This document shows positions 9,764 through 11,678 of a stretch of 40,320 nt of DNA, piece after piece. The DNA comes from Synergistaceae bacterium (GTDB taxonomy: Bacteria; Synergistota; Synergistia; Synergistales; Synergistaceae), in assembly GCA_031268885.1 (NCBI GenBank), contig JAIRWR010000080.1, forward strand, positions 1 through 40,320. The letters are read 5' to 3'. Positions within the stretch are counted from its first letter, which is position 1; each line of letters opens with the position of its first letter. Position numbers and translations under genes: made by a program. The notes beneath the pieces were generated by a model. It had not been told where the DNA came from. It did no database searches and saw only the letters and a program-made list of their open reading frames with translations.

Positions 9764-10915
9764 CTATCTCCGCGTCCCGGAGACCAGGGACGCCAGGAGA
9801 TTTTTGCGGACTGTCATCGCGCCTTTTGGGCACATCTCGTGACAACAGAGGCACCGGACGCACTTTTTCCTGTCGATGCGAGGATACGCGCCGGTACGGC
9901 TTATGGCATTCACCGGACAGACCGATTCGCAGATCCAGCACTTCGCACACTGGCTCTCGTCGAGTACGGGTGTGATCTTGACCAGTCCGTGGGCCAATCC
10001 CCTGATGATCGTCGGTAGAGCCCTAAGAGCCCTGGTGGACTTTTTAAACCCCGCGACCGGAAGTTCATCCCAGTCAGCGCCGTTCAGGACGATTTCGGAC
10101 TCGGACGCTGGACCGATGCCCCGGTCGATTGCCGCCTTTATCAGGGGGATGGACGCCGGATCACCGTAACACATCATCCGGCACAGCACCCAGTCCACGG
10201 CAAGCGCGTTCTGTCCCGCGACGATCATGCCGGTTAGACGGGGCGTTCCGTGAGAGGGACCGTCTCCCTCCATGCCGACCACCGCGTCGGCTATGTTGAA
10301 CTCCGGCGGCCTGACGGAGAAGATATCGACTATCGCATCCGCTAGCCGCTTCTGTGATGACGAGCGATGAGCCTTTTTTCTGGTCTCCGTGTCGGCGGTC
10401 CCGAATATGTTCTTTATGCAGCCCGACATCTCCGTCTCGACGTGAGTCTTGAGCTTAGGCGCGTTTATGCGATACGCCGCGTCCAGATATCTCGCCGAGA
10501 TACGCGCATCCGGCAGAACGCTGAATCCATCCCCGGCGATCATCCTGGTTCCGAGGTCTGAGAGCGGCCCGACGCTTACGCGCGGCAGAGACGCGAGGTT
10601 CGCCAGTCCCGTCACCTCAAACAGCAGACCGGAGTCGGTAAAGAGATACCCTGGACTGTCCGCGACGCGGACGGAGACATCCATGCCGGATGTCCGTCTC
10701 TCGATCTCCTGAGCTATTCCCTCTATAACCCTGGGATGCGTGGTAACAGCCTCCTCCGGCGGCGAAGGAGAGAGGGCGTTTGTTTTTATCAGCACAGGAC
10801 CAGACATTTCGCCGGGAAACCCACCAGCCCTTTCGACGGCAACTCGAATGGCCTCGTTAACCTCGTCTCTTTCGTAACTTAGGCACTTCGCGAGACCTAC
10901 AATAAATTTTTTAAT
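9764..10915 (-). CDS. DUF362 protein with C-terminal double [4Fe-4S] ferredoxin domain; start codon apparently ATT
   Basis: DUF362 domain followed by a bacterial ferredoxin domain. The eight cysteines are in CAKCWICESVCP and CVRCLCCHEMCP near the C-terminus, so two [4Fe-4S] clusters and an electron-transfer role are expected. The specific reaction is unknown for the family. The first ATG in frame (10807) would remove conserved sequence. The 36 codons before it encode a DUF362-like N-terminus (KKFIVGLAKCLSYERDEV..) that runs into VLIKTNAL. This extended frame opens after an in-frame TGA and contains no ATG, GTG or TTG. The only near-cognate start is ATT at 10915, which overlaps the nth stop codon as ATTAA with GGAG just upstream. 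From ATT the product is 383 residues. A sequence error or frameshift is the alternative. Confidence 0.8.
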   Translation of the reverse strand: MKKFIVGLAKCLSYERDEVNEAIRVAVERAGGFPGEMSGPVLIKTNALSPSPPEEAVTTHPRVIEGIAQEIERRTSGMDVSVRVADSPGYLFTDSGLLFEVTGLANLASLPRVSVGPLSDLGTRMIAGDGFSVLPDARISARYLDAAYRINAPKLKTHVETEMSGCIKNIFGTADTETRKKAHRSSSQKRLADAIVDIFSVRPPEFNIADAVVGMEGDGPSHGTPRLTGMIVAGQNALAVDWVLCRMMCYGDPASIPLIKAAIDRGIGPASESEIVLNGADWDELPVAGFKKSTRALRALPTIIRGLAHGLVKITPVLDESQCAKCWICESVCPVNAISRTGAYPRIDRKKCVRCLCCHEMCPKGAMTVRKNLLASLVSGTRR

Positions 10916-11678
10916 CTCCGCTCACCCCAACTCTCTCGCACAGACCCACTACGACGCAGCCTTCGCACTTAGGATGCCTGGCGCCGCAGATTGCCCTGCC
11001 GTGTTCAATCATATTCAGATGCCCTCCGCCGCACCTCTCGGGTGGGACTACCAACTCCAGGAACTCCTGTATCCTCTCGGGAACCATTTTCTCCTTGACC
11101 CAGCCCAGCCGCCGCGATACCCTCGCCACGTGAGTGTCCACCGGAAACGCTGGCATCCCAAGGTCGAACATCATGACACACGCAACCGTCTTAGGGCCTA
11201 TTCCAGGAAGGTCCGAAAGGTACCGCCTGACATCGTCCGGAGGCCGTTTTTTCAGCGATGAGAGGCTGTAAGCGCCGAAATCCGAGCGGATTTGTTCCAG
11301 TATCGCCCTCATTCTCACCGATTTAGTATCCCCGAGGCCGGCAGGACGAATTAACGAGGCTATCTCCGCCGGCGTCAGAGACGCGACATCCTCCCAGGCC
11401 GGGTATCTTGCCCTAAGCGCGTCATAAGCCATGTCTCTGTTTCTGTCGTTTGTGTTTTGCGACAGCAGGGTAAGAATCAGACCATCCAGAGGTTCTCCGG
11501 TCGATAAAGCCTCCGGCGGCATTTCGTCGTTCCCGTAGGCGGAGTCGAGCGCGTCGAGAACGGCCAATATCCGCCCGACTTCGCCGGCTGCCTCCGCGTT
11601 ACGCTGAGGAAGATGTCGTCCTGATCCTCTAGGAGTTATCGCCTCCAGATCCTTCGCCATCCCCTTTGCTCTGCTCAT
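10911..11678 (-). CDS. nth: endonuclease III-like DNA glycosylase/AP lyase
   Basis: Base-excision repair enzyme that removes oxidised pyrimidines and cleaves at abasic sites. It has the helix-hairpin-helix LPGIGPKTVACV with the catalytic lysine, the catalytic aspartate in FPVDTHVARV, and the C-terminal iron-sulfur motif CGARHPKCEGCVVVGLC. The N-terminus is about 40 residues longer than in E. coli and is basic. Three ATGs compete (11687, 11678, 11660). I choose 11678 because GAGGAGG ends nine bases before it. The start lies inside the 3' end of the upstream protease gene (about 50 bases of overlap), and the stop overlaps the next gene, so all three are probably one coupled transcript. Confidence 0.88.
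   Translation of the reverse strand: MSRAKGMAKDLEAITPRGSGRHLPQRNAEAAGEVGRILAVLDALDSAYGNDEMPPEALSTGEPLDGLILTLLSQNTNDRNRDMAYDALRARYPAWEDVASLTPAEIASLIRPAGLGDTKSVRMRAILEQIRSDFGAYSLSSLKKRPPDDVRRYLSDLPGIGPKTVACVMMFDLGMPAFPVDTHVARVSRRLGWVKEKMVPERIQEFLELVVPPERCGGGHLNMIEHGRAICGARHPKCEGCVVVGLCERVGVSGD

Follow-up and report, generated by a model that had tools for sequence, protein, structure and literature searches.

In a gut Synergistaceae bacterium, the gene for an iron-sulfur protein (DUF362) very probably begins at an ATT codon whose final base opens the stop codon of the preceding DNA glycosylase gene, the two together reading ATTAA. A sister species (genome G001) has the same arrangement. The window analyzed here is the whole stretch of 40,320 nt, and the genes concerned lie on its minus strand:

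9764–10915, minus strand: gene for the DUF362 + 2x[4Fe-4S] protein (PF04015 and Fer4 matches), with orthologues in all close relatives.
10911–11678, minus strand: EndoIII-like HhH-GPD glycosylase gene (PF00730, 9.7e-16), its probable start at 11678 placed where the sister has GTG at the corresponding codon.
11629–11631, minus strand: stop codon TAG of a Lon-like protease gene, inside the 5' end of the glycosylase gene (overlap of about 50 nt).

Read from the ATT, the DUF362 gene, which is single-copy in the genome, comprises 383 codons followed by a stop. Its protein contains a PF04015 domain (8.2e-41), passing the gathering cut-off with 140.7 bits vs 24, and a Fer4 match (1.8e-10) with paired C-terminal 4Fe-4S motifs. 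The upstream gene had been called nth in the earlier note, and the [4Fe-4S] cluster motif of EndoIII, C-X6-C-X2-C-X5-C, can indeed be read in its translation CGARHPKCEGCVVVGLC. The specific name did not hold, however, as the nth model TIGR01083 gave 101.6 bits against a cut-off of 211.7, and the DR2438-type model NF053634 gave 133 bits, also below its cut-off. Because the DR2438-type score exceeds that of nth and neither cut-off is passed, we refer to the gene as EndoIII-like. The glycosylase start probably lies within the end of the Lon-like gene (11629–11678), in which case three consecutive genes overlap. In Synergistales, the DUF362 gene is repeatedly found next to one for an Fe-S DNA glycosylase.

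The junction between the two genes and the region downstream of it contain the following features:

10922–10928, minus strand: extended Shine-Dalgarno (SD) sequence GGGGTGA, 6 nt 5' of the ATT and identical in G001.
10924–10922, minus strand: in-frame TGA closing the DUF362 frame upstream, as read in the sequence.
10916–10919, minus strand: GGAG touching the ATT.
10913–10915, minus strand: proposed start codon ATT, conserved in G001 and the positional equivalent of ATG in G003, G018 and L064.
10911–10915, minus strand: 5-nt overlap ATTAA of the DUF362 start and the glycosylase stop TAA (10913–10911), as read in the sequence.
10903–10928, minus strand: 26-nt block identical in the sister.
10808–10915, minus strand: conserved head of 36 codons lacking a canonical start, with strand 1 and helix 1 (selection and AF2 model).
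10805–10807, minus strand: first canonical in-frame ATG, rejected as the start.
10793–10795, minus strand: GTG at codon 41, the sole canonical codon near the N-terminus common to both species.

The glycosylase gene ends GTT GGG GTG AGC GGA GAT TAA on the minus strand, and the DUF362 frame, one frame over, reads the same bases as TGA GCG GAG ATT AAA AAA. The junction thus runs ...GGGGTGAGCGGAG, then ATT AAA AAA TTT ATT GTA GGT CTC GCG AAG TGC... The overlap reported in the earlier note was confirmed, with the ATT at 10915–10913 and the TAA at 10913–10911. The same note described a frame that opens after an in-frame TGA with no ATG, GTG or TTG, and this is what is seen from the TGA at 10924–10922 to the ATG at 10807, 36 codons on. 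The GGAG that it placed just before the ATT is present at 10916–10919, but with zero spacing it is unlikely to serve the ATT and was rejected as its SD; GGGGUGA at 10928–10922 is the candidate instead.

With a standard anti-SD assumed, since no 16S 3' end turned up within the 1.65 Mb surveyed, the best duplex of GGGGUGA is -11.1 kcal/mol in both species. By the same measure and assumption, the SD of the ATT beats those of 63% of the genome's genes, and just 2.75% of internal positions drawn at random are preceded by one as strong. The ATT is also the sole near-cognate codon within the first nine codons that is common to both sister species. A second ATT (10903) was rejected as the start, as the sister has ACC there and its SD is weaker (-6.6). 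An RNA hairpin over the start was likewise set aside, its strength not being conserved (-9.4 kcal/mol in the sister and -1.2 in the window, over 41 nt), and an Rfam search of the window matched no family.

The geometry of the overlap requires an unusual start, because canonical starts end in G and stops begin with T. Among 421 close gene pairs in this genome, 72 overlap by -4, 25 by -1 and 14 by -8, and no canonical-start overlap of -5 was found. The glycosylase/DUF362 pair also has overlapping stop and start codons, but in a -5 arrangement with ATT rather than the canonical -4 or -1. Taken alone, an ATN codon at -5 is nothing unusual, occurring in 6 of the 115 pairs whose frame permits it; of these, only the glycosylase/DUF362 pair is without a nearby canonical start.

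Comparison of the junction in related genomes, proposed in the earlier note as a check, showed that G001 keeps the ATT junction identically and offers no fallback ATG. The sister genome is a separate assembly (contig public as JAISLO010000157.1, Synergistaceae MAG), and its DUF362 protein is 81% identical to that of the host. Over 1,822 aligned nt, only three runs of identity exceed the 26-nt junction block GGGGTGAGCGGAGATTAAAAAATTTA, and these lie in the coding parts of the two genes. To some extent the glycosylase imposes this conservation of the ATT, since its Asp codon and stop have bases in common with the ATT.

Across Synergistales, 37 distinct EndoIII-like/DUF362 junctions were compared, and all but the ATT pair have ATG, GTG or TTG. 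The canonical start lies near the conserved column in 34 of the non-ATT junctions and 56 codons upstream in L078. The latter was considered as another case lacking a start and rejected: L078 carries an N-terminal extension, its upstream ATG is in frame and preceded by a good SD, and its DUF362 gene is not overlapped by the glycosylase and has an ordinary start. An ATG occupies the very column of the ATT in G003, a member of the same genus, and in G018 and L064. The commonest orthologous junction is a 4-nt NTGA overlap. Within the family, a DUF362 orthologue was found in 23 of the 53 genomes searched, with ATT in the host and G001 only. In the maximum-likelihood tree the two ATT species group as sisters (100/97); G002, which has a TTGA overlap, branches off next to them, and G003 beyond it. 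The frame relation between the two genes varies: counted from the column, the first base of the glycosylase stop lies at +2 in the ATT pair and at -2 or -8 in G002 and G003. The simplest history would combine an indel that shifted the frame near the end of the glycosylase gene, on the branch leading to the ATT pair, with a change of the old start to ATT, its third base becoming the T of the new glycosylase stop. Simple reversion of the ATT is obstructed, because T->G would lengthen the glycosylase by 18 codons in the host and 34 in the sister.

On the basis of these features, we propose that fMet-tRNA would initiate DUF362 at AUU 10915–10913, with the extended SD GGGGUGA setting the position. 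On completing the glycosylase at the UAA, a ribosome or 30S subunit would occupy the same bases, and a fraction may re-initiate one frame over at the AUU, giving a low DUF362 output coupled to glycosylase translation; 30S subunits that bind the SD afresh may contribute. Re-initiation in Escherichia coli requires initiator tRNA, is favored by IF2 and is inhibited by excess IF3 (PMC2268962). As IF3 discriminates against AUU, DUF362 output should rise as IF3 activity falls, as for infC; for non-canonical starts, PMC5472188 quotes increases of 3–15 fold. AUA in AUAA failed to support coupling in an SD-less reporter (PMC9955659), so the SD would matter at the DUF362 junction. Tight translational coupling of DUF362 to the glycosylase appears to us an evenly balanced proposition, whereas purposeful regulation of DUF362 through IF3, argued by analogy, is rather unlikely. 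The full combination, a natural conserved -5 ATTAA that re-initiates at AUU and ties DUF362 output to both glycosylase translation and IF3, is put forward tentatively, as possible rather than probable.

The most serious alternative, only somewhat short of an even chance, accepts initiation at the ATT but sees in it a weak start tolerated after a frame-changing indel, in a gene of which little product is needed, neither coupling nor IF3 control having been selected. As a start codon AUU is inefficient: a survey in E. coli, cited by PMC10666635, put it at about 0.3% of AUG, and non-canonical starts in Staphylococcus aureus reach about 10% of AUG (PMC13009471). This poor efficiency and the restriction of the ATT junction to two species count against the proposed mechanism and fit a tolerated start, and since a return to ATG harms the glycosylase stop, persistence of the ATT needs no benefit. 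On the other hand, the whole block from SD to start is identical between the two species despite a 45% difference at four-fold sites, and a tight overlap persists in nearly all relatives; both points tell against a start that is only tolerated.

Initiation at the ATT, as opposed to further downstream, is favored by the evidence that the 36-codon head encodes real protein. The earlier note had suggested that these codons are the DUF362 N-terminus, and several observations bear this out. The alignments of the closest relatives to the DUF362 protein begin at residues 1–6, and the match to NCBIfam NF052623, whose score is below the model's cut-off, starts at residue 6, corresponding to profile position 3. 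Between host and sister, dN/dS is 0.15 for codons 2–40 and 0.13 for the remainder of the gene, vs 1.2–1.4 when codons 2–40 are read in the other two frames; purifying selection acts on DUF362 codons 2–40. An AlphaFold2 model (28 sequences, mean pLDDT 87) forms the first strand from residues 4–10 and the first helix from residues 16–29, with block mean pLDDT of 93–99, so a start at 10807 would be predicted to delete the first strand and first helix of the DUF362 fold. In Foldseek the model resembles LarA lactate racemases (E 3e-6, TM about 0.4), which agrees with the Pfam clan common to DUF362 and the LarA-type DUF2088 (PMC11770544). The protein is thus predicted to combine a fold like that of the LarA nickel-pincer racemase with a C-terminal 2[4Fe-4S] ferredoxin-like domain.

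An internal canonical start, either the ATG at 10807 or the GTG at codon 41 present in both species, with the first 36–40 codons untranslated or a minor form, is therefore improbable. Canonical codons are available there, and the match to the Pfam DUF362 profile does not start before residue 41. However, codon 37 of G001 is ATC instead of the host's ATG 10807, leaving GTG at codon 41 as its first canonical codon. The SD at ATG 10807 is at background level (-6.3 kcal/mol), and that at the GTG is weak (-3.7 in the host and -7.6 in G001). Moreover, the codons that would be lost are those under purifying selection that form the first strand and helix, and all other orthologues begin upstream of that segment. 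A glycosylase-DUF362 fusion through +1 programmed frameshifting at GAT TAA, as in prfB, is less probable still. The +1 frame relation, the stop at the site and the SD-like sequence upstream would suit it, but by pairing rules re-pairing of the P-site tRNA-Asp from GAU to AUU would bring two mismatches, unlike known +1 sites, and relatives use separate canonical starts. Finally, a sequencing or assembly error masking a true ATG, GTG or TTG, a concern of the earlier note, would be conceivable in a draft genome of 136 contigs but is scarcely credible, as the same ATT is found in the separately assembled sister, at 45% four-fold-site difference, and a G would also abolish the glycosylase stop. By keeping the ATT and having ATC in place of ATG 10807, the sister makes a base error unlikely, and initiation at 10807 as well.

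Initiation at the ATT may not be alone in this genome. An ATT also seems to start infC (L039, contig C76; AGGAGGTGG TTAATC ATT AGC AAC); the same apparent ATT is seen in those close relatives that were inspected, and Synergistales further removed have ATA. Going by these apparent starts, initiation at AUU, with IF3 discriminating against it, is probably native to the lineage. In E. coli, infC has an AUU start and IF3 is autoregulated (PMC5472188). The DUF362 gene resembles infC in its AUU start after a strong SD. It differs in that DUF362 is no translation factor, its start overlaps an upstream stop and no feedback loop is implied.

To our knowledge, few bacterial genes with AUU starts are known outside infC. 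For the remark in the earlier note that such starts are usually regulatory, the literature offers infC and Streptomyces sigR as precedents. Streptomyces sigR likewise has a conserved non-canonical start outside infC with a long SD, but that start is GTC, is IF3-repressed, has been experimentally shown and is without a stop/start overlap (PMC5472188). In S. aureus, cvfC1 (AUU) and ccpN (AUA) also have conserved non-canonical starts with an extended SD outside infC; unlike the DUF362 gene, cvfC1 is first in its operon, hence without overlap of an upstream stop, and its start was mapped by ribosome profiling (PMC13009471). The -4 (NTGA) and -1 termination-reinitiation pairs share bases between stop and start (PMC6728339, PMC10666635), as does the junction studied here, but with a canonical geometry in place of the -5 ATTAA. 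Huber et al. 2023 ruled out -5 for canonical codons, pointed out that ATT could give ATTAA, ATTAG or ATTGA, and suspected errors or infrequent non-canonical starts behind those -5 overlaps that are annotated (PMC10666635).

A codon-model survey of 1.65 of the 2.44 Mb of the genome, taken in stretches with 1,055 genes called, identified few long heads with coding signal but no canonical start, the DUF362 head being one. The strongest in the survey belongs to tatC (L204:17245–17403, contig C108), which directly follows tatA and has a conserved head of 49 codons without ATG, GTG or TTG, opening TAA and then ATT CAT AAA. In the congeners G002 and G003 (L227, L234) the tatC N-terminus is conserved, also without an in-frame canonical start; no near-cognate codon fits there, and an ATG or GTG lies one frame away. 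The G001 contig ends within tatC. The tatC head may reflect a non-canonical start, frameshifting or an assembly indel. An integrase-like gene (L095, minus strand, ~16934) has 39 initial codons without a start and looks truncated or frameshifted.

Gene callers limited to ATG, GTG and TTG misplace AUU starts. Further cases may be sought with the rule of a conserved head lacking a start together with ATTAA, ATTGA or ATTAG at the upstream stop. The DUF362 junction brings comparative evidence for an unusual start together with a -5 geometry that accounts for its hard reversion, and it offers a direct test of whether ribosomes can re-initiate at a non-canonical start that overlaps a stop. If true, re-initiation at ATTAA would represent a class of gene junction hitherto deemed impossible or an annotation error.
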